NCBI GenBank assembly: GCA_021812245.1
Contig: JAKAOK010000005.1
Coordinates: 1-64,000, forward strand
DNA: 64,000 nucleotides
Direction: 5' to 3'
From: a bacterium
GTDB lineage: Bacteria > SZUA-79 > Acidulodesulfobacterales > Acidulodesulfobacteraceae
Shown here: piece after piece, positions 6,441-34,366 of the stretch
Layout of the letters: every line of letters begins with the position of its first letter
Position numbering within the stretch: the stretch's first letter is position 1
Notes under the pieces: generated by a model
What the model was told of the DNA's origin: nothing
The model's database searches: none
The model's input: the letters and a program-made list of their open reading frames with translations, nothing else
Position numbers and translations under genes: made by a program

Positions 6441-7710
6441 ATCTGAAATATTTTTTCACCCTTAACGGAGCGCAAAATTCCCCACACATACTGCATCCCG
6501 CCGTTTCATCGTTATTTTTAGACTTAAAAACCGCCCTTGAATAATCTGGGTCTATCGAATATCTGAACTGGCTTTCCCAGTCTATATCCCTTCTCGCTTT
6601 CGATATATTCAAATCGTCGCCCGTTTTCTTCAATTTTATCATGTCTCCTATATGGGCGGCAATCTTTGCCGATTTAACGCCTGTTTCCACGTCCTCTTCG
6701 GAAGGAAGGCCCAGATGTTCCGCCGGAGTCACGTAGCACAGAAAATCCGCTCCGAAAGAAGATGACAAAGCCCCGCCTATCGCCGAAGATATATGGTCGT
6801 AGCCTGCCGCAACGTCCGTAACGAGAGGCCCCAAAACATAAAACGGAGCATCGTTAGACATTTTCTTTTGAATTTTAACGTTGGCTTCTATCTCGTCTAT
6901 CGGAATATGTCCCGGACCTTCGACGATAGCCTGAACTCCATAATCTCTCGCAATATCGCAAAGCTCGCAGTTGATGATAAGTTCCTGCATATAAGCCCTA
7001 TCGAAAGAGTCCGCCGTAGCGCCAGCTCTTAAACCGTTTCCAAGACTCAATACCGTATCGTATTTTTTTAAAATTTTAAGCACGTCTTCAAACCTTTCGT
7101 ATAAAGGGTTTTCTTTATTGTTTTCTATCATCCACGCTATCATATACGCTCCCCCCTTGGAAACGAGACCGGCGTACCTGTAGGACTGCTTTTTCAATCT
7201 CTCCAAAGACATCATATTTAAACCGGAGTGTATCGCCATAAAAGAAACGCCGTCGGCGCACTGTTTTTCGATAACGTCTAAAACCAACTCATCCGGCATT
7301 TTTACGGGATTTTTATATATATCTATAGCTTCCCTGAATGCCTGATAAAGAGGAACGGTTCCGACCGGCAGAGAAGTATTGTTTAAAACTTCCTTTCTTA
7401 TAAGGTCTAAATCCCCTCCCACGCTAAGTTCCATTAACGTATCGGCTCCGGATTTTTCCGCGATAGCCGCCTTTCTTATTTCTTCGTCCAAATCTATATG
7501 ATTTGTGGAAGTCCCTATGCTTGCGTTTATTTTTGTAGTTAAATCTTTTCCTATCCCGACAAATTTGTCCCTGTTTTTATTGTGCAGGATAACGGCTTTG
7601 CCGCTTATTATGTTTTCTTTGAGCCTTTCTAATCCGACATTTTCTTTAGCCGAAACATATTTCATTCCGGCGGTGCATATATCTTTAAGCGCGTTTTCTT
7701 TTTCCGTCAT
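6412..7710 (-). CDS. thiC: Phosphomethylpyrimidine synthase ThiC
   Basis: Radical SAM enzyme converting aminoimidazole ribotide to HMP phosphate, the pyrimidine branch of thiamine synthesis. The C-terminal [4Fe-4S] motif C-x2-C-x4-C appears as CSMCGEFC. Conserved stretches VEGPGHIPIDEI, LGPLVTDVAAGYDHI and YVTPAEHLGLP are intact. The 432-residue length is the short bacterial form. Only 44 nt separate it from cbiA, leaving no room for a TPP riboswitch, so its expression should follow the cobalamin operon. Confidence 0.96.
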   Translation of the reverse strand: MTEKENALKDICTAGMKYVSAKENVGLERLKENIISGKAVILHNKNRDKFVGIGKDLTTKINASIGTSTNHIDLDEEIRKAAIAEKSGADTLMELSVGGDLDLIRKEVLNNTSLPVGTVPLYQAFREAIDIYKNPVKMPDELVLDVIEKQCADGVSFMAIHSGLNMMSLERLKKQSYRYAGLVSKGGAYMIAWMIENNKENPLYERFEDVLKILKKYDTVLSLGNGLRAGATADSFDRAYMQELIINCELCDIARDYGVQAIVEGPGHIPIDEIEANVKIQKKMSNDAPFYVLGPLVTDVAAGYDHISSAIGGALSSSFGADFLCYVTPAEHLGLPSEEDVETGVKSAKIAAHIGDMIKLKKTGDDLNISKARRDIDWESQFRYSIDPDYSRAVFKSKNNDETAGCSMCGEFCAPLRVKKYFRYEIKQGKKS

Positions 7711-17867: not shown

Positions 17868-18686
17868 TTATTTATAAAGTCCGAGCCTTAGCTTTATTAC
17901 TCCGAAGAAAGCCTCGAAAATAATACCGTTGGACATTTTAGATTTTCCCATCGTTCTTTCGTAAAATATTATGGGATACTCTTTAAAACCGCATCCCGCC
18001 TCCTTAAAGACTCTGTATTTCATCTCTATCTGAAATGCGTATCCTCTTGAACTTATGCCGCCGAGATTTATCTTTTTAAGGCAGTTTACGTCGTACATAT
18101 TGAAGCCGCCGGTTAAATCGCTTATTTTAATGCCGGTAACTAATTTTGCGTAAATATTTGCAAAGTAGGAAATCAAAAGCCGCTTCATACTCCAGTTTAT
18201 TATTCGTATTCCGCCGGAATAGCGGGAGCCGACAATCATTCCGCATTTTTCGGCTTCCATAAGGCTGACGAAGCCGGCAATCTCTTCGGGATTATGAGAA
18301 AAATCGCAGTCCATAGTCAATACGTAATCGTAGCCTTTTTCGACGGCAAAATTAAATGCGCCGGTATAAGCCGTTCCGAGTCCAAGTTTCTTTTCCCTTT
18401 CGATTAGAAAAAGATTTCTGCCTTCGCCGTCATTGTCATTGCGAGCGTTAGCGAAGCAATCTCCGCCTTTTACTCCGTTTCCGGCATCCCTGTTTTTTTG
18501 CTTTTTTATAAATTCCTTGACTATTTGGCCGGTGCCGTCCGGCGAATTGTCGTCTATTATTAAGAGGCTTATGGAATGGTTCGATTTTTTTACGGCTTCG
18601 GACTCGTTAAGGCTTAAAACGGAATTTGTCATCCGCCCTATATTGTCTTTTTCGTTATAAGTGGGTATTGCGACGAGTATTTTCAT
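17868..18686 (-). CDS. GT2 polyprenol-phosphate mannosyltransferase-like
   Basis: Family 2 glycosyltransferase related to dolichol-phosphate mannose synthase, 272 residues. The N-terminus has VAIPTYNEKDNI and LLIIDDNSPDGTG; the DxD motif is in LTMDCDFSHNPEEI. No C-terminal membrane domain follows, as in DPM1-type enzymes. Residues 74-86 (GGDCFANARNDND) are the translation of a REP palindrome (about 18433-18463), inserted before the conserved IEREKKLGLGTAY. It probably makes lipid-linked sugar for surface glycans, perhaps for the GT39 enzyme at 25 kb (inference). Confidence 0.88.
   Translation of the reverse strand: MKILVAIPTYNEKDNIGRMTNSVLSLNESEAVKKSNHSISLLIIDDNSPDGTGQIVKEFIKKQKNRDAGNGVKGGDCFANARNDNDGEGRNLFLIEREKKLGLGTAYTGAFNFAVEKGYDYVLTMDCDFSHNPEEIAGFVSLMEAEKCGMIVGSRYSGGIRIINWSMKRLLISYFANIYAKLVTGIKISDLTGGFNMYDVNCLKKINLGGISSRGYAFQIEMKYRVFKEAGCGFKEYPIIFYERTMGKSKMSNGIIFEAFFGVIKLRLGLYK
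18433..18463 (-). repeat. REP palindrome translated within GT2 gene
   Basis: CATTGCGAGCGTTAGCGAAG is the common TGCGAGCG/CGCTCGCA REP of this genome, here read in frame as GDCFANARND. Confidence 0.8.
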
Positions 18687-18729
18687 TTAATTACTTATAT
18701 AATAAATAAATCTGATACCTTTTTTTTGC

Positions 18730-18942
18730 TTACGCAACGACTAATTCAATAGGTAAAGACGTATCTACACCGACAGTTTTACTGACATATAATTTTTCAA
18801 TGCCGATTGTTGCGCCGAATTTATTTTTTTTCAATATAATACCTTCGCCTGCTTCTTCGGACATTGCTTCGTCCTCTGGATTTCCGAACCATATATCCAT
18901 AGTATCGGAATCTTTATTATAATAAACTTTTACTTTTCCCAT
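18730..18942 (-). CDS. DUF2283 protein, module 1
   Basis: A 70-residue protein of the DUF2283 family (VKVYYNKDSDTMDIWFG ... IGIEKLYVSK). DUF2283 proteins often follow a small DUF4258-type gene in toxin-antitoxin-like pairs; DUF2283 is the putative antitoxin. Here the upstream partner is a frameshifted gene (18930-19257) whose end overlaps this start by 13 nt. Function unproven. Confidence 0.8.
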   Translation of the reverse strand: MGKVKVYYNKDSDTMDIWFGNPEDEAMSEEAGEGIILKKNKFGATIGIEKLYVSKTVGVDTSLPIELVVA

Positions 18943-19257
18943 ATTGAATCCCCTTCTTTTATTTTATCCGTTGGATATGCCGTTATTAAAAAGCCTAGTG
19001 ACTTTGTATGTTTTGCCGCAATACAATATAGTTTATCGAATTTTTTATAATAAAGAAAAATTTCTTTGTCTATCTTACTCTGTCTTATTTCGTCAGGAAT
19101 TTTTAATGTATTTTTATAAATCCTCTTTATTTTTCATTACCGGGTGTTTTATATCGATAAGATATTGCCAATAATCGATTGTTGTTCTGACTTCAACATT
19201 TAATGGGGTTATTATCTTAAAAAATATCTTATCAATGTTTATAAAGCCATTTTCCAT
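18930..19257 (-). pseudogene. Frameshifted toxin-like partner of DUF2283 module 1
   Basis: Not in the ORF track. The minus strand ATG at 19257 gives VEVRTTIDYWQYLIDIKHPVM, then a stop soon after KNKEDL. A one-base shift near 19130 restores RIYKNTLKIPDEIRQSKIDK, LYYKKFDKLYCIAAKH and FLITAYPTDKIKEGDSIW, ending at 18930 inside the DUF2283 gene. The two halves join into one familiar small hypothetical-protein pattern (Y-W-x-Y-I-x-x-x-H-P ... L-x-x-P-D-E-I-R ... F-L-I-T-A-Y). I read it as a broken toxin of about 108 residues. A sequencing error cannot be excluded. Confidence 0.65.
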
Positions 19258-19271
19258 ATTGGTTTACTTAT

Positions 19272-19300
19272 ACGATACATCAATTTTATAAAATAATCAA
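19272..19300 (-). promoter_or_regulatory. Promoter of module 1, at repeat boundary
   Basis: Minus strand TTGATT (19295-19300), 17-bp spacer, TATCGT (19272-19277). The same arrangement, TTGATT-17-TATAGT followed by ATAAGTAAA, is seen before module 3 (21683-21711). In both, the -35 is formed by the end of the shared repeat (GTCAACTTGATT or GTCAATTTGATT). Confidence 0.5.
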
Positions 19301-19489
19301 ATTGACATAACGGCAAATTATTAAAAAACGGTAAATGCAAGCGGGAGTGGAATACGGAGGCAGACGATTTTAAAAATAGGCGGGCAGGGGTTTATGAAAG
19401 TATAAAAGCATTGCTTTTATGGCTTTTAAGTCTGCCAAAATGGCTTTTAAGTCTGCCGAAGTGAAATAAATCTGACACCTTTATTTTTT
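19295..19489. repeat. Cassette-boundary repeat, copy 1
   Basis: On the plus strand it starts AATCAAATTGACATAACGGC and includes GGTAAATGCAAGCGGGAGTGG, a GGAGGCAGACGATTTTAAAAAT block and two copies of ATGGCTTTTAAGTCTGCC. It ends AAATAAATCTGACACCTTTATT. A close relative with the same middle block is at 21003-21173, and shorter relatives are at 20389-20456, 21706-21826, 21878-22074 and 22150-22235. It separates the RAYT gene from module 1. Confidence 0.75.
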
Positions 19490-19490
19490 A

Positions 19491-20222
19491 TTAAAATAAT
19501 GTGGTTGGCATTGTTACTTTAACAGGTCGCCCTTTTCCCCGTTTTTCTATTCTTCTTCCGATTATCTGCTCTACAGAATCAGTAAAATAGCTGTTTCCCG
19601 TAAGCTGGCCTCGATTTAAAACTCCTCTCAGAAAATCTAATTCGCCCGATGGTATATTTTCCTGAAGGAACTTTGAGTATTTTTCGCGCCTTATTTCTTC
19701 CTTTTCGCTCAAACCAAGAAACATTGGATCTAAATCTATATCCATATCCCTGTCGGACTGCTCTTTTACTTTGTCGCTGCTCATTCTTGTAATATAACTT
19801 GACCACCTATAATCCGACGGTTTTTCTACAATATTTGCCCGAACTGGATTTAATTCGATATAACGGCAACAGGCTAATAAATATTGGTCTCTTTGCACAG
19901 GGCTTGATTTATACCTGCTTTCCCACAATGTTCCGCTTCTGCCTTCTAATATATTAAAATAACGGGTGGTTCGTCCGGCAAGTGTTTTCATAAATACCCA
20001 CAGATTTGAAACTTCATCTCCGGGCTGTAGAAGTAAATGAATATGATTAGTCATAAGGCAATAAGCAAATACTTTTATTTCAAATTTAATTTTTAATTCC
20101 TGTATATTTTTAAGATAATTATTAAAATCTTCGTCTTGCGCAAATATTACCTGCCTGTTATGTCCTCGTTGAACTATGTGGTGAGGGCAATTTGGCAGCA
20201 GGATTCTTTTAGTTCTCGGCAT
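19491..20222 (-). CDS. REP-associated tyrosine transposase (RAYT)
   Basis: A 243-residue single-strand transposase of the IS200-like Y1 superfamily. N-terminal MPRTKRILLPN and VQRGHNRQVIF are RAYT hallmarks. The metal-binding HxH is His60/His62 (TNHIHLLL) and the likely catalytic Tyr is Tyr88 (TRYFN). Downstream ELNPVRANIVEKPSDYRWSSY is also typical. RAYTs are single-copy housekeeping-like enzymes linked to REP palindromes rather than classic IS elements. No flanking IS ends are seen. Both sides carry the C-type repeat ending (AAATCTGTCCCC or AAATCTGACACC). It is intact. Confidence 0.93.
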   Translation of the reverse strand: MPRTKRILLPNCPHHIVQRGHNRQVIFAQDEDFNNYLKNIQELKIKFEIKVFAYCLMTNHIHLLLQPGDEVSNLWVFMKTLAGRTTRYFNILEGRSGTLWESRYKSSPVQRDQYLLACCRYIELNPVRANIVEKPSDYRWSSYITRMSSDKVKEQSDRDMDIDLDPMFLGLSEKEEIRREKYSKFLQENIPSGELDFLRGVLNRGQLTGNSYFTDSVEQIIGRRIEKRGKGRPVKVTMPTTLF

Positions 20223-20388
20223 ATTTAATTATTCCGTCAATTATTCCGCAAAATTATTATGCTTTTGATTATTATTATTTAATTTAAATTTTTAATTCTA
20301 ATTTTTTATTATTATAATAAACGAAAGTTAAAATATTATGATGGAAATGTTAAAGAAATGTTAAATTTTTGTTGCAGAATGATTACAA

Positions 20389-20456
20389 TGAACCGGCAAA
20401 CGCAGGCGGGAGTAGAGGAATAAATAAGGAATAAATAAATCTGTCCCCTTTATTCT
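20389..20456. repeat. Cassette-boundary repeat, copy 2 (short)
   Basis: ACCGGCAAACGCAGGCGGGAGT followed by AATAAATAAATCTGTCCCC. It sits between the RAYT gene's start and the end of DUF2283 module 2. It lacks the GTCAACTTGATT end. Confidence 0.7.
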
Positions 20457-20677
20457 TATACGGCTATCTTTTCTAAGGGTATATTTTCTATAGAGATGTT
20501 TGAAAGTTCGGCGGGATTAAGTTTTTCGCTTGCATCGAGAATCTCGATTCCAACTATATGTCCTTTTTCATCAATATCTACCGTTACCCCTTTTTCCACA
20601 TCCATCGAATCGACTATTTTTGCATCTCTAATTTTAATATATAGTGCATCCACATCTTTACTGTACTCGATTTTCAT
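20456..20677 (-). CDS. DUF2283 protein, module 2
   Basis: 73 residues with the family pattern YSKDVDALYIKIRDAKI ... DIDEKGHIVGIEILDAS. It follows the DUF4258 gene by 11 nt, making a complete small-gene pair of toxin-antitoxin type. Its stop lies against a repeat copy. Confidence 0.85.
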   Translation of the reverse strand: MKIEYSKDVDALYIKIRDAKIVDSMDVEKGVTVDIDEKGHIVGIEILDASEKLNPAELSNISIENIPLEKIAV

Positions 20678-20688
20678 AAAATTAACCT

Positions 20689-20928
20689 CTAAAAAGATTT
20701 AAAAGATTTTTTTCTAATAGTCACGGTTATAATCAAAATATTATCATTTTCTTCCTTAAATGTGACCCTTATAAACCTATTGCCTATATATTTATAAGCA
20801 TTTTTTCTGTCTTTAGCGTCAAATTCTATATAATCGGCTCGATTCACAACAGAACTAATCTCTTCTTCCGAGACATTCCTGTCTTTCATTCTTTTTCTTG
20901 CATGTCTGCAATAATTTATAGGTTTCAT
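20689..20928 (-). CDS. DUF4258 protein, module 2
   Basis: 79 residues: HARKRMKDRNVSEEEISSVV near the N-terminus, then beta-rich RFIRVTFKEENDNILIITVTI. DUF4258 proteins resemble small RelE/BrnT-like toxins in size and pairing, but activity is unproven. Unlike module 3 it has no GTCAACTTGATT end directly upstream; its leader is different. Confidence 0.85.
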   Translation of the reverse strand: MKPINYCRHARKRMKDRNVSEEEISSVVNRADYIEFDAKDRKNAYKYIGNRFIRVTFKEENDNILIITVTIRKKSFKSF

Positions 20929-21002
20929 TCGTCCTTTTTATAATTTAACATAAAAAATATTATCCGTCTATTTATTTTTTCACTAAAAAAATAAAATAAT
21001 TA

Positions 21003-21173
21003 AGCTAATCTAAAGTTAAGTTGGCATAATTGGAAATTACGGCAAATGCAGGCGGAAGTAGGATACGGAGGCAGACGATTTTAAAAATATGCGGGTAGGG
21101 GTTGTGAAAGTATAAAAGCATTGCTTTTATGGCTTTTAAGTCTGCCGGAGTGAAATAAATCAGATACCTTTAC
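21003..21173. repeat. Cassette-boundary repeat, copy 3
   Basis: Shares with copy 1 the blocks GGCAGACGATTTTAAAAATA, GTATAAAAGCATTGCTTTTATGG and CTTTTAAGTCTGCC, and the end GTGAAATAAATCAGATACC. It separates module 2 from module 3. Confidence 0.75.
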
Positions 21174-21190
21174 TTCTATTCTGATCTCGC

Positions 21191-21403
21191 TTATGCCGTC
21201 TTTTCAATTTCGTATTGCAAAGGGAAAAGCTTGTCGAGAGCAACATGCTTTGACGCATCTATTATCTCTATTCCGACAATTTTATCATGTTCGCCTATAT
21301 CTAAAACCACGTCTTCGGAAACCCGCCTATTAATCAAATCTTGTTTTATCTCGTCTAACCTGATATATAAAAGGTCGGTTTTATCGCTGTAAAAAATATT
21401 CAT
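21191..21403 (-). CDS. DUF2283 protein, module 3
   Basis: 71 residues (MNIFYSDKTDLLYIRLDEIKQ ... VVLDIGEHDKIVGIEIIDAS). I start it at ATG 21403, not the track's 21418, because this ATG overlaps the DUF4258 stop as ATGA. That 4-nt overlap is typical of translationally coupled pairs. Confidence 0.85.
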   Translation of the reverse strand: MNIFYSDKTDLLYIRLDEIKQDLINRRVSEDVVLDIGEHDKIVGIEIIDASKHVALDKLFPLQYEIEKTA

Positions 21404-21669
21404 AAAATATTCTCCCATTTGCCGTAAAAAACATATACTGTTACGGTAATTATTTTTTCTTTTTCGATAATAAAAAATACTTCTATTCTTTTCTGCTCAT
21501 AGAAATTGTTAAGGCGCTTTTTCTTAAATTCGTAAACCTTAGCTTTCCCGATTCGCCCGTATTTTGCCTCAATCGAAAAACCGCTCAGTATGACGTCTTT
21601 AATCTCAATCTCGTTAGCTCCTCTTTCTTGCGCCCGCTCCAGCGTGTGCCGGTCTATTTGTATTTCCAT
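21400..21669 (-). CDS. DUF4258 protein, module 3
   Basis: 89 residues: RHTLERAQERGANEIEIKDVI, then KVYEFKKKRLNNFYEQKRIEV and a beta-strand end IITVTVYVFYGKWE. It is the putative toxin partner of the overlapping DUF2283 gene. It is a divergent paralogue of module 2, not a recent copy. Confidence 0.85.
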   Translation of the reverse strand: MEIQIDRHTLERAQERGANEIEIKDVILSGFSIEAKYGRIGKAKVYEFKKKRLNNFYEQKRIEVFFIIEKEKIITVTVYVFYGKWENIL

Positions 21670-21682
21670 ATGTTTTACTTAT

Positions 21683-21711
21683 ACTATAAATGAATTTATA
21701 AAAATAATCAA
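21683..21711 (-). promoter_or_regulatory. Promoter of module 3, at repeat boundary
   Basis: Minus strand TTGATT (21706-21711), 17-bp spacer, TATAGT (21683-21688), followed by ATAAGTAAA before the gene. The -35 is the end of the repeat element. Confidence 0.55.
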
Positions 21712-22235
21712 GTTGACGCAACGGAAAATTCTAAAAATAAAAATAAGGGAAAGGGAATAAAATACGGCAAACGCAGGGCGGGAGTGGGGAAATAAATAAA
21801 TCTGTCCCCTTTATTTCCCTCCCCTTTATTTCCCTCCCCTTTATTTCCCTCCCCTTTATTTCCTTTATTAAATAATCAAGTTAACATAATGGAATTTTAT
21901 GGCGGCGGGGAATAAAAACCTGCTGCGCAGATTCAAGCGGGAGTGGGGAAATAAATAAATCTGTCCCCTTTATTTTAAGTTAACATAATGGAATTTTATG
22001 GCGGCGGGGAATAAAAACCTGCTGCGCAGATTCAAGCGGGAGTGGGGAAATAAATAAATCTGTCCCCTTTATTTCCCTCCCCTTTATTTCCTTTATTAGT
22101 CCCCTTTATTTAATAACATAAATTTTAAAGATATGAAAAACAGAAAATAAATCAAGTTGACATAACGGCAAATTATGAGAAAATACGGCAAACGCAGGTG
22201 GGAGTAAGGAAATAAATAAATCTGTCCCCTTTATT
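21706..22235. repeat. Repeat cluster between module 3 and Cyc2-like gene
   Basis: No gene is seen in 21670-22316. It holds four copies of the cassette-boundary repeat: about 21706-21826, two tandem copies at 21878-21976 and 21977-22074 (period 99 bp, almost identical), and 22150-22235. Each ends AAATAAATAAATCTGTCCCC. Between them, 21806-21863 is a near-perfect tandem array of a 15-bp unit, CCCTTTATTTCCCTC, about four copies. Confidence 0.85.
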
Positions 22236-22245
22236 AAGAAAGAAA

Positions 22246-25016: not shown

Positions 25017-25041
25017 GGGAACAGATTTGAAATCTGTTCCC
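25017..25041. repeat. C-type palindrome in apt leader
   Basis: GGGAACAGATTT-G-AAATCTGTTCCC is a perfect 25-bp palindrome between the apt promoter and start codon. It would form a strong hairpin in the leader RNA about 25 nt before the ATG. Confidence 0.85.
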
Positions 25042-25113: not shown

Positions 25114-27003
25114 TCAATACATCCTGTAATTGCCGAAGCGACGTTCGGCGGCGGAAGCGTTAAAATCTTTCATCAGATACAGATAATACGTTCTTACCGG
25201 TTTAAATTTAACGTAAATATCGAGCCTGCCTATTTTTTTTACCGATTTAAAAAACGGCGCATATTTTTGGACGGGATTCAGCATATATTTGTTATCCATA
25301 ACAAACAGGGCATTTTCTCCGTTTATTTTGTTCAGGTTCTGCCGGAGGTCGTACTGGTTTAAAAAACCGGATATATTATAAATATTTACGGCAGGCTTGT
25401 ATCCGCCGTAATAGACGAGTTCGTCGGCAATGGCATAGTGGTGCGTAAGGATAAAGAGCGGACGGTAAGCCGCCTTATAGCCTTTATAAACGATTCCTAT
25501 ATACTTTGCGCCGTGCCGCCAACCGAAAAGGTCGTTCGTTATGTCGGCGGTGGAAGGTTTGCCCGGAATATGCGGGATGAGCGAAAACACCCCGCCCTTT
25601 CTAAGCCGCTTTTCTTTGTCGATATAACGTATTATTTTACCTACCGGTATGGAATTATAATAAATCTGGTTATATACGACAAGGGACAAAAAGAAACCGG
25701 AAAAGAGGGCGAAATAGACGTAATATTTGAGGAAAAAGAAAAAGGGGACAGATTTATTTATTCCCAAGTTGCTGCTTGACTTTGCCGAACTGTTCGTTTG
25801 AGAATAAAAAATATCTGTCCCCTTTTTCTTTTCTTGTTTCCGCGTAAACAGGTCGGCGGAATAACCCATAACTGGAAATACGGCGAGATAACCTATGTCC
25901 GGCCAGTGGACGAGAATTCTGTGGGAATAGCCGTTTATAACGAAAAATAATAGAATAGGAATAGACAAACAGACGGAAAACAGCAAAGATTCACGGACGC
26001 CGCCGGTGGAAAAGGGGACGGATTTTAAATCTGTCCCCTTTTCTTCTTTGTCGAACCGCCCCGTCGGCCGAAGGCCGACACCCCTCCTTTTAAGTAGGGG
26101 AGCTATATAGAAAAAAACTCCTATTAAAAATATATATATAAACGGCGTAATAACCAGAACCTGTCCGAACCAGCCGGCGGCCAAAAGGGGAAAACCCGGC
26201 TTGGGGTGCGAAAAACCGTGCGAAAGCTGAAACTTAAACGATATAAAATTATGCGTAAAATTCCAGTATATTACCGGCGAAAAAACAAGAAGCGCTACGG
26301 CAAGAGCCATATAAGGATAAAATGTTTTTAAAAAACGTCTGTTTCGTCCGGAAACAAGCAGATACAGAAGAACGGCGGGCGGGATGAGCGCGGCGGTGTA
26401 TTTGCTTAAAAACGCAAAGCCGAGGGAGATACCGGCGAGGAGCCAGTAAGAAGAAAAAAAAGAAAAAAAGGGGACAGATTTATTTTTTGCTTTGCAAAAA
26501 AAAAGATCTGTCCCCTTTTTTTCTTTCATCGTCTTATTCCCCTCTGCCGCTTTATAAAAAAATATAAAAAAACAGAGAGTAAAAAACAACAGGGGGGCAT
26601 CGGGAAGCGCCATAACGGAAAGAATCATTCCAAAAATAACGGCGGACAGAAAAAATAAAAACGAGAAAAAAGCCGCCCGTTTGTTTTTAAATAAAATATA
26701 AGAAAGGTAATATACTAAAAATCCGTCTAAGAAAGAAAAGATAACTGCGCCGAGCCTGACCGAAAGCTGGCTTTTGCCGAAAATACCGTCAAAAACGTAT
26801 ATAATCCAGCCGATAAGAGGGGCGTCGTCGAGATAGCCTAAAGACGGTTTCAACGACCATACATAATAATGCGCTTCGTCGTTGCCGAGGTTAAGAGTGG
26901 AAGCAAGATGAATATGGATGATAAGCGCAACCAGAGAAATGAGAATTAAATAAATCTCATATTGAAATTTACCGATATACAAACTCAATTTTTGCCTGCT
27001 CAA
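25114..27003 (-). CDS. GT39-family glycosyltransferase with in-frame repeats
   Basis: Multi-pass inner-membrane transferase of the ArnT/PMT type (GT-C fold), 629 residues, using a polyprenyl-phosphate sugar. The N-terminal loop LNLGNDEAHYYVWSLKPSLGY, with the acidic pair, is the family active-site region. Translated palindromes are found at about residues 161-183 (KKGTDLFF ... NKSVPFF), 305-335 (RRGVGLRPTG then EKGTDLKSVPF) and 391-424 (KKKGTDIF ... NKSVPFF), all between membrane segments. Without them the protein would be about 80-90 residues shorter, nearer the family norm. It is 5 nt after the kinase gene. Confidence 0.88.
   Translation of the reverse strand: MSRQKLSLYIGKFQYEIYLILISLVALIIHIHLASTLNLGNDEAHYYVWSLKPSLGYLDDAPLIGWIIYVFDGIFGKSQLSVRLGAVIFSFLDGFLVYYLSYILFKNKRAAFFSFLFFLSAVIFGMILSVMALPDAPLLFFTLCFFIFFYKAAEGNKTMKEKKGTDLFFCKAKNKSVPFFSFFSSYWLLAGISLGFAFLSKYTAALIPPAVLLYLLVSGRNRRFLKTFYPYMALAVALLVFSPVIYWNFTHNFISFKFQLSHGFSHPKPGFPLLAAGWFGQVLVITPFIYIFLIGVFFYIAPLLKRRGVGLRPTGRFDKEEKGTDLKSVPFSTGGVRESLLFSVCLSIPILLFFVINGYSHRILVHWPDIGYLAVFPVMGYSADLFTRKQEKKKGTDIFYSQTNSSAKSSSNLGINKSVPFFFFLKYYVYFALFSGFFLSLVVYNQIYYNSIPVGKIIRYIDKEKRLRKGGVFSLIPHIPGKPSTADITNDLFGWRHGAKYIGIVYKGYKAAYRPLFILTHHYAIADELVYYGGYKPAVNIYNISGFLNQYDLRQNLNKINGENALFVMDNKYMLNPVQKYAPFFKSVKKIGRLDIYVKFKPVRTYYLYLMKDFNASAAERRFGNYRMY
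25733..25832 (-). repeat. C-type palindrome, GT39 insertion 3
   Basis: AAAAGGGGACAGATTTATTT and ATATCTGTCCCCTTTTTC are inverted ends around about 60 bp, wholly in frame. It encodes KKKGTDIFYS ... NKSVPFFF. Confidence 0.85.
26010..26105 (-). repeat. Two adjacent palindromes, GT39 insertion 2
   Basis: AAAAGGGGACGGATTTTAAATCTGTCCCCTTTT (26013-26045) encodes EKGTDLKSVPF. Next to it CGTCGGCCGAAGGCCGACACC (about 26060-26085) encodes GVGLRPTG. Two different repeat families are inserted side by side in one loop. Confidence 0.8.
26459..26524 (-). repeat. C-type palindrome, GT39 insertion 1
   Basis: AAAAGGGGACAGATTTATTT and AGATCTGTCCCCTTTTTT are inverted ends with a TTTTTGCTTTGCAAAAA inner palindrome. 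It encodes KKGTDLFFCKAKNKSVPFF in frame. Confidence 0.85.
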
Positions 27004-27008
27004 ATTTA

Positions 27009-28814
27009 TTATAAAGCGCCTGCTATAATTATAGTTTTCATTAATCCGTTAAATCTGTCTTTCAGTTCCAAAGCGGCATCGATTTGCGCAAATAAGGCAG
27101 TGTCGCTGCCGACGGCGGTCAACGGCTCTAATTCTTTTTCCGAAGGCTCCTCAAAATATTCCTTCTGGTTAAAATAAACCGCGGCATCTGCTTCGGAATA
27201 ATCGTTTAAACCGGCGGCGGCTGAATCGGCGTTTGCGCCGCCGACGCCGAACCTGTCCGCAAGCCTTTTTAATATAATTTCTTCTTTTTCTTTTTCGTCA
27301 TATATTTTAGAATATACGAATATAAAAATACAGTCTTTTTTATTAAAACTATTAATTATTTTTTCGCGGTGGGCGTGCTTTAAGAATGTAGCGTCGAATA
27401 TTACGCTGCCGCCGTTTCCCTGCCGCCCGCCGTTTTCAAATTCTTTAAGTCCTTCTTCGAGCATGGTTTCGTAAACCTTTACGTTTGCGTCAGCCGAATA
27501 TTTGACGGACTTATCCGCCCCGCCGAATAAGTTCTGCCTTATTTCGTCCGTGGAAACGATTCGCGCGTAAAACCACTCGGAAAGCAGGCGGGAAAGCGAA
27601 GACTTGCCGCTGCCGGAAAGACCGCAATTAAGAATAACGACCCGTTTTTTTGCCAGGGCAAGATAAAAAGCCGCCAGATTGAAATATTTAAGGGCTTTTG
27701 CGGGCGCGTCTCCTCCGGGGGAAAGCATGGAAATCTTAGTTCTGACTATCGCCCTGTAGGCTTTAAAAAAAGGTATCACGAAAGGTTCGTATTTCTCGAA
27801 CGGGGCAATGGATTTTAAATAGTTAAAACAGTTTTTATAATAGCCGAAAAACAGGACGGATTCATAAAAATAGCCGTTAAATTCAAAATCCATAAGTAAA
27901 AAGGCAATGTCTAAATATATATCCTGGCATCTGTATCTTTCGTCAAATTCGACGCAGTCCATAAGACAGGTTCCGTTAACGCGGCGAGGGTCTAAAACAG
28001 CTATATGCTCCATTCTTAAATCCCCGTGAACGTCCCTGACGAAGCCGCCTTCGGCGCGGAGGCGGATAAATTCGGAGAAAATAGAAGACTCAAGGAAAGA
28101 ACTGTAAGCAGAGCGGAAGGAAGAGCAAGAAAGGGATAGAATGGAAAAAAAGGGGGCAAATATTTTTTTTTCGGTTTTTTGAAAAAATAAATCTGTCCCC
28201 TTTTTTTCATTGCCCTTTTTTTCATTCTTTTCTTCTATTATTTTATAATTGTCGTCCCAGTTTGCCTTATAAACATCGTAACCGCCGAATTTAGAAATTC
28301 TTTTCGCGGTTCGGGCGGTCTTATGAAACAGGTATATTCTTTTCGCGGTTTTTTTTAGAATATCGTTTATTTTTATTGCGGAAACCGTCTGATTACTTTT
28401 CAAGATATTATTTAAAAAACAGTCGGAATTTACCCTTCTCATCCTGACAAAGACGTCTATGAGCCTACCACCCTTAAATCCGGTGAACTGCTTGTCCTTT
28501 TTCTGCCTGAGTTCTACCAAATCAAGATAAATACCGGAGCAGGCTCTTCTGTTTAAAGACAGTTCGCGTTTTGCGAAAAAAATTCTCTTTTTGAGGGTCG
28601 TATAATCGACGAAGCCGAAATTTACCGGTTTTTTTTGCTTGTAGGCGAACTTAGGGGTTAAATAAACCCGCGATATATGGGTTTCGATAACTGCCGCCCC
28701 GCCAGAACCGCCCCGCCCTGACGAACCCCCCTCCTCGGCATTAAAAGAAAAGGGGACGGATTTGAAATCCGTCCCCTTTTCTTTCCATTCTTCCTTCTTT
28801 TCTTCATCGCGCAT
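27009..28814 (-). CDS. APH-like/P-loop kinase fusion with in-frame repeats
   Basis: 601 residues. The N-terminal part belongs to the aminoglycoside-phosphotransferase-like fold (ETHISRVYLTPKFAYKQKKPVNFGF, VRDVHGDLRMEHI with the catalytic HGD, CVEFDERYRCQDIYLDIAFLLMD). The C-terminal part is an AAA/zeta-like kinase with P-loop GLSGSGKSS (398-406). This two-domain architecture is a known uncharacterised family; the substrate is unknown. Residues 11-25 (KEKGTDFKSVPFSF) and 199-224 (KKGNEKKGTDLFFQKT) are translated palindromes. The true start may lie at or inside the first one, because family members usually begin shortly before ETHIS. Confidence 0.82.
   Translation of the reverse strand: MRDEEKKEEWKEKGTDFKSVPFSFNAEEGGSSGRGGSGGAAVIETHISRVYLTPKFAYKQKKPVNFGFVDYTTLKKRIFFAKRELSLNRRACSGIYLDLVELRQKKDKQFTGFKGGRLIDVFVRMRRVNSDCFLNNILKSNQTVSAIKINDILKKTAKRIYLFHKTARTAKRISKFGGYDVYKANWDDNYKIIEEKNEKKGNEKKGTDLFFQKTEKKIFAPFFSILSLSCSSFRSAYSSFLESSIFSEFIRLRAEGGFVRDVHGDLRMEHIAVLDPRRVNGTCLMDCVEFDERYRCQDIYLDIAFLLMDFEFNGYFYESVLFFGYYKNCFNYLKSIAPFEKYEPFVIPFFKAYRAIVRTKISMLSPGGDAPAKALKYFNLAAFYLALAKKRVVILNCGLSGSGKSSLSRLLSEWFYARIVSTDEIRQNLFGGADKSVKYSADANVKVYETMLEEGLKEFENGGRQGNGGSVIFDATFLKHAHREKIINSFNKKDCIFIFVYSKIYDEKEKEEIILKRLADRFGVGGANADSAAAGLNDYSEADAAVYFNQKEYFEEPSEKELEPLTAVGSDTALFAQIDAALELKDRFNGLMKTIIIAGAL
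28146..28206 (-). repeat. C-type palindrome, kinase insertion 2
   Basis: AAAAAGGGGGCAAATATTTT and AAATAAATCTGTCCCCTTTT are imperfect inverted ends, in frame. The left end has drifted (GGGGGCAAAT for GGGGACAGAT), so this copy is older than the N-terminal one. Confidence 0.75.
28747..28785 (-). repeat. C-type palindrome, kinase insertion 1
   Basis: AAAAGGGGACGGATTT and AAATCCGTCCCCTTTT form a near-perfect palindrome in frame close to the N-terminus. It encodes EKGTDFKSVPFSF. Confidence 0.85.
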
Positions 28815-34339: not shown

Positions 34340-34366
34340 GGGGGACAGATTTAAAATCTGTCCCCG
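34340..34366. repeat. C-type palindrome between bamD and LolB-like gene
   Basis: GGGGGACAGATTT and AAATCTGTCCCC form a perfect hairpin. It is an intergenic example of the element that is translated inside the GT39 and kinase genes. Confidence 0.85.

Follow-up and report, generated by a model that had tools for sequence, protein, structure and literature searches.

Intragenic REP-like elements are not confined to Rickettsia and have already been described in many other bacteria (PMC3733652, PMC6006769), and the REPs of one group of TnpA-Y1 proteins, subclass 2.4, sit in frame inside their own tnpA genes (PMC6006769). Another group, subclass 2.1, is characterized by NHVH and YIELNP motifs, a median length of 238 aa and a C-terminal extension, and no REP was found for it (PMC6006769). 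Most of the genes called TIRYT belong to this subclass (PMC6006769, PMC3733652), and the terminal motif that flanks them is GGGGWSAS (PMC3733652). Here we analyze a locus at which short palindromes are predicted to be translated within a GT39-type membrane glycosyltransferase, and we consider it probable that they represent a TIRYT-linked, REPIN-like family of mobile palindromes, spread by a RAYT and tolerated in frame. A sequence-only reading of the window (the whole stretch of 64,000 nucleotides analyzed) had recognized in-frame insertion of elements from two families into loops, an interpretation that stands, and had overlooked the RAYT/TIRYT link, the spread across phyla and the intragenic REP-like elements that were already known.

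The GT39 open reading frame (ORF) matches PMT_2 (1.6e-29), as well as PMT, in Pfam. A phmmer search of the PDB gave no match at E <= 0.01, and an AlphaFold model computed from a three-sequence alignment was unusable (pLDDT 35, pTM 0.23). Pairwise comparison with seven congeners yielded dN values of 0.12-0.18 and dS values of 0.66-1.35, with dN/dS of about 0.13-0.2, so that the gene is evolving under purifying selection. Conservation extends to the residues that surround the inserts. The coordinates given for it earlier were correct, as was the claim that it harbors at least four palindromes from two families, namely a GTCGGCC hairpin and, from the main family, three elements of the form GGGGACAGATTT..AAATCTGTCCCC with lengths of 79, 25 and 46 bp (Table 1). 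Of the three, just the 25-bp one is a plain palindrome, and in the remaining two a longer centre separates the two arms. In the long forms (25744-25822 and 26470-26515, as well as L022, L086 and L309), the arms are unequal, with GGGGACAGATTTATTTATT on one side and GGGGACAGAT(C/A)TTTTTTATT on the other. The GTCGGCC hairpin (26063-26079; VGLRPT, residues 309-314) is paired with a second hairpin in a two-hairpin element (26059-26100).

All inserts are in frame and the read-through contains no stop, confirming that the palindromes keep the gene open and add codons for peptides of the KGTDLKSVPF type; since the lengths of 79, 46 and 25 bp are all 1 mod 3, a frame that enters at (K)GTD exits at SVP. 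A search of the open literature for the peptide GTDLKSVP found no paper. The inserts occupy three K/R-rich loops, each flanked by hydrophobic segments and variable in length among the 26 orthologues aligned from within the family, in agreement with the earlier placement between membrane segments, and the positive-inside rule predicts that the three loops are cytoplasmic.

Table 1. Features of the window, in order of position.
Feature	Position	Strand	Details or basis
RAYT / TnpA-Y1 gene, 243 aa	19491..20222	-	PF01797 1.7e-13, residues 11-123; NHIH, YIELNP
RAYT-flanking half-site GGGGACAGATTTATTTATT, first of a same-orientation series	20428..20454	-	21 nt identical to an arm of the 79-bp GT39 element
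Four further half-sites (21798, 21957, 22056, 22218) in ~100-nt direct repeats	21791..22235	-	
Intergenic copy, variant common to both arms, GGGAACAGATTTGAAATCTGTTCCC	25017..25041		
GT39-type membrane glycosyltransferase gene (PMT_2/PMT), 629 aa	25114..27003	-	ORF call; Pfam; orthologues; dN/dS
79-bp element, loop 3, residues 394-420, peptide KGTDIFYSQTNSSAKSSSNLGINKSVP	25744..25822	-	Sequence
25-bp palindrome, loop 2, residues 322-330, KGTDLKSVP	26014..26038	-	Sequence
Second-family two-hairpin element CCCCGTCGGCCGAAGGCCGAC-A-CCCCTCCTTTTAAGTAGGGG, loop 2, read as APLLKRRGVGLRPTG	26059..26100	-	Sequence
46-bp element, loop 1, residues 163-178, peptide KGTDLFFCKAKNKSVP	26470..26515	-	Sequence
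Kinase-like ORF (AAA_33 domain), 601 aa, second insert-bearing gene	27009..28814	-	ORF, domain match
Degenerate element in kinase-like ORF, KGTDLFFQKTEKKIFAPF	about 28148..28200	-	Loop variable among orthologues
Intact 25-bp palindrome GGGGACGGATTTGAAATCCGTCCCC, KGTDFKSVPF, 14 residues from N-terminus of kinase-like ORF	28752..28776	-	
Intergenic 25-bp copy, perfect	34341..34365		

The half-site is strongly enriched well beyond this gene. At one mismatch or fewer, GGGGACAGATTT occurs 19 times in the window versus 0.36 expected from shuffles of the window, and across the whole genome (G000; 1.78 Mb, 61 contigs) there are 39+37 = 76 half-sites versus 5+5 = 10 for the reversed pattern. When elements with at most one mismatch per half-site were classified in G000, seven were found inside convincing genes: three in GT39, two in the neighbouring kinase-like ORF, one in DnaE and one in an NtrC-type regulator, so that 5 of these 7 interior elements fall in GT39 and the kinase-like ORF. 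The DnaE insert lies in a loop of variable length (14 orthologues), and the NtrC-type insert, a GGGGTCAG variant, separates the AAA+ part from the HTH part, to judge by the sequence. All seven begin in the G(T/S)D frame, the sole frame that is open for any central base; the GTD..SVP reading is thus the easiest one to tolerate. In addition, a perfect palindrome was observed in another frame (GQILNLSP) at the extreme N-terminus of an apparent lysyl-tRNA synthetase ORF (L002, G000:C4, ~1501-1525), where it could belong to the 5' untranslated region instead of the coding sequence. The second palindrome family, GTCGGCCNNNGGCCGACACCCCTCCTT, is present in 10 of 16 genus genomes, with none for the reversed pattern. 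It has 2 copies in G000 versus 20 in G011, at least one of the latter being in GT39, where it is read as RGVGRRPTG.

Comparison of orthologues distinguishes insertion from mere drift in loop length. In the alignment, the segments that correspond to loops 1-3 measure 43, 57 and 47 aa in the GT39 of the window, while element-free loops in the same genus are mostly of 15-30 aa (loop 1 has 17-20 aa in G011 and G013, and loop 3 has 15-18 aa in seven species). The expectation that homologues lacking the repeats have shorter loops thus mostly held within the genus; it failed in the sister genus, whose Asn/Lys-rich GT39 loops are equally long and contain no palindromes. Loop length by itself is therefore no proof of insertion, and these loops must generally accept extra residues. 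Within the genus, the same loops carry a KGTDFKSVPF insert in G012 and G004, a GQISNLSP insert, in another frame, in G008 and G015, and an RGVGRRPTG-type insert in G001, G008, G010, G011 and G015. More tellingly, the 79-bp element has copies in the kinase-like ORF of G008 (92% identical; L309:1539-1617) and of G010 (90% identical; L310:3172-3248), in both of which GT39 loop 3 is empty, and G007 has the 46-bp element, at 98% identity, in its kinase-like ORF (L314:2007-2052), where the orientation of the copy relative to the gene is opposite to that in GT39, while its GT39 loop 1 is empty. The same unit therefore sits in different genes in different species, and we conclude from these sequence comparisons that the 79- and 46-bp GT39 elements are real insertions. 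Concerning loop 2, we note that the right flank of the elements in G000, G004 and the G007 paralogue, TTTCCACCG, is the same as the mirrored loop-1 host flank of G012, CGGTGGAAA, as if the loop-2 copies were derived from a loop-1 copy with a captured flank.

The RAYT, the sole Y1_Tnp gene found in G000, lies approximately 5 kb from GT39. It scores 75.3 bits against NF047646 (REP_Tyr_transpos), slightly below the 80-bit cut-off, and by its motifs it matches subclass 2.1, i.e. the 'TIRYT' type. The sequence GGGGACAG, present in the consensus copies of the palindrome, fits GGGGWSAS. Next to the RAYT of the window, the five half-sites AATAAATAAATCTGTCCCCTTTATT are direct rather than inverted repeats, and the gene is thus no textbook TIRtron in G000. 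In G063 (L300), the RAYT is enclosed by inverted GGGGACAG repeats, and in two gammaproteobacterial MAGs, SJ243 and SJ336 (L291, L292), GGGGACAGATTTATTTTT..AAAAATAAATCTGTCCCC elements stand on either side of a long RAYT. Overall, GGGGACAG was found at 9 of 19 long-type RAYT loci versus none of 11 IS200-type loci, and in 5 of the 7 genus genomes with this RAYT type the distance from the gene to GT39 and/or the kinase-like ORF is 0.5-6 kb. Y1_Tnp genes were present in 37 of 41 carrier genomes versus 20 of 31 control genomes without the palindrome, a co-occurrence that is weak because Y1_Tnp is common and the carriers are no random sample. In G012, whose genome is 91% complete, many elements were found and no RAYT was detected.

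An array of small-gene cassettes (18425-22236), with DUF2283/DUF4258 pairs, adjoins the RAYT, and a corresponding array in G003 (L147, G003:C16, 1-6700) carries HicA/HicB. The cassettes are separated by ~100-nt direct repeats that end in AAATAAATCTG(TCCCC|ACACC)TTTATT. Those common to the window and G003 are 95-96% identical and differ in order, dnaE being 83% and the kinase-like gene 74-82% identical between the two; on sequence grounds, they look like horizontally shuffled, toxin-antitoxin-like cassettes bounded by the RAYT motif. The G003 array ends within a gene for a family-2 glycosyltransferase, of which the window has an intact copy (17868-18686), and 210 nt of this region occur twice, with 99% identity, at the ends of the G003 array (L147:138-347 and 6481-6690).

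Beyond the genus, the perfect palindrome was found in at least 117 stretches from MAGs and isolates of several phyla, with labels that include Deltaproteobacteria/Syntrophales, Gammaproteobacteria (Marinobacter, Halorhodospira, Thioalkalivibrio), Nitrospirae, Coprothermobacterota, Clostridium and Geobacter. When up to three mismatches were allowed, there were 15-59 copies in four carriers and 17 in G000, with none for the reversed control, and zero copies in 31 genomes of unrelated families. Across 80 stretches taken from other genomes, ORFs of at least 200 aa contain 46 of the 90 perfect palindromes and cover 82% of the DNA, indicating that genes are avoided yet frequently entered; the phases of these 46 are 24/11/11. 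A tblastn search detected no RAYT similar to that of the window within a few kb of the 117 perfect-palindrome stretches of other phyla, which lowers our confidence in the proposed partnership.

We envisage that the family unit consists of two inverted GGGGACAGATTT(ATTTATT) half-sites around a variable centre, forming a short, dispersed and mobile element whose half-site would also bound the adjacent RAYT gene, itself present in a single copy. This RAYT, as an HUH-type single-strand endonuclease, most likely acts on the half-sites and would mobilize the elements, spreading them mostly near its own locus. Copies that enter genes would persist if they land in a loop or linker and have a total length that preserves the frame; the GT39 and kinase-like genes appear, from the sequences compared, to tolerate mobile DNA in flexible loops. 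The inserted peptides, presumably without a function of their own, would then evolve as neutral loop filling. The flanks are compatible with such a scheme: in 133 flank pairs, no direct repeat of 3-5 nt stood clearly above shuffled flanks, and the lack of a target-site duplication argues against a DDE-type MITE and is consistent with HUH chemistry. A 6-nt repeat around the DnaE insert was for this reason not counted as a target-site duplication.

The flanks also provide arguments for another explanation, which we regard as unlikely, namely that the palindromes arise in place: a half-site GGGGACAGATTT on a nicked or stalled strand would fold back, and template switching would produce an inverted duplication that includes host bases, the RAYT being either the nicking enzyme or irrelevant. 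Among the 133 perfect palindromes from other phyla, mirroring extends by at least 4 nt into the unique flanks in 16 (1.2 expected) and reaches a mirroring score of at least 6 nt in 12 (0.28 expected), and for the elements of the genus and family at least 6 nt are mirrored in 18 of 52 (1.4 expected). Non-consensus 24/25-mers have the same variant in both arms in 8 cases and not in 6. In loop 1 of the G012 GT39, 14 nt are mirrored, among them the host sequence AAAGCGGTGGA, common to orthologues, which is copied as TCCACCGCTTT, a sequence absent from the aligned orthologues. Host coding DNA has here been duplicated in inverted orientation, which suggests that fold-back synthesis took place in at least that case. 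However, most elements show no flank mirroring, and where it occurs it might reflect insertion into pre-existing palindromes, a possibility that only the G012 case decides against. Moreover, elements of 46 and 79 bp that share an interior recur in different genes of different species, which requires that a unit has moved. A combination of both ideas, which we also hold to be rather improbable, is that the subclass 2.1 RAYT nicks GGGGACAG half-sites and leaves a free 3' end that folds back to serve as primer; palindromes would then originate on the spot and take up host coding sequence in inverted copy. The same motif would bound the exchangeable toxin-antitoxin-like cassettes beside the RAYT, and the whole would amount to a broader single-strand DNA editing that diversifies protein loops.

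A function for the hairpins, either as RNA or DNA structures that regulate the gene or as peptides active in the loops, seems very improbable to us. They do form strong inverted repeats in the transcript, and several orthologues have inserts at the same loops; yet the number, place, orientation and family of the inserts vary among close relatives, others lack them in an otherwise conserved protein, and the same elements occur in DnaE, in the NtrC-type regulator and in intergenic space. Finally, the idea that the loops are simply variable low-complexity regions in which palindromes appear by chance or through assembly artefacts, for which the long palindrome-free loops of the sister genus could be invoked, was rejected as highly implausible, given half-site frequencies far above chance, copies shared across genes, their absence from the 31 control genomes versus 15-59 copies in carriers, and independent assemblies that carry the elements at orthologous and other sites.

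How does the RAYT-spread family that we favour relate to known systems? Since RPE, intragenic GTAG/CGTC REPs and subclass 2.4 REPs are known, it is not categorically new. MITEs are likewise short, non-coding, mobile inverted repeats, but they are associated with target-site duplication and a DDE-type enzyme, whereas no duplication was detected here and the candidate partner is of HUH type. The likeness to Rickettsia RPE (including RPE-4/RPE-6, which are CGTC REPs) pointed out in the sequence-only reading holds, in that both are in-frame palindromes in unrelated genes, several per gene and apparently tolerated; as it also stated, the sequence differs. The hosts differ too. RPE-4/RPE-6 have a CGTC terminal tag, which is missing here from cores and flank composition alike, the cores ending in GGGG/CCCC and the terminal motif being GGGGACAG. 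REPIN/REP systems with RAYTs resemble the present one in their inverted pairs of half-sites, in a Y1 gene near some copies, in in-frame insertion in flexible regions and in conserved stem mismatches, as deduced for the long forms from their unequal arms. They differ in the GT[AG]G foot, as no GTAG/GTGG is seen in the flank base composition of 133 palindromes, and in the transposase, which by motif belongs here to the subclass for which PMC6006769 found no REP.

By its motif, our family falls with the TIRtrons/TIRYT (Di Nocera et al. 2013, PMC3733652), with which it shares the fit to the terminal motif, a Y1 transposase with subclass 2.1 motifs and dispersed copies that are often inverted dimers. 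In TIRtrons, inverted TIRs flank the transposase, whereas the window RAYT has direct repeats; the inverted arrangement is seen in L300, and whole elements lie on both sides of the gene in L291 and L292. In the available parts of PMC3733652 and PMC6006769 we found no description of translated in-gene TIR copies or of TIRs spread across phyla. Relative to these, what appears to be new is a TIRYT-motif element in coding sequence, one consensus across phyla, the closeness of the RAYT to the genes that received elements, and the duplication of host flanks in inverted form, the latter being a mechanistic clue. The family also illustrates how loops of membrane proteins and polymerases acquire sequence from mobile DNA. 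Subclass 2.1 RAYTs, which are common and reported without REPs, gain a candidate substrate and a putative cut site, GGGGACAG, with GGGGACAGATTTATTT and the 25-bp palindrome as candidate single-stranded substrates. Lastly, CGTC/RPE elements have no known transposase (PMC3733652), whereas in the present family the elements share their motif with a candidate transposase, and in-frame palindromes of the RPE type thus gain the candidate enzyme that they were missing.
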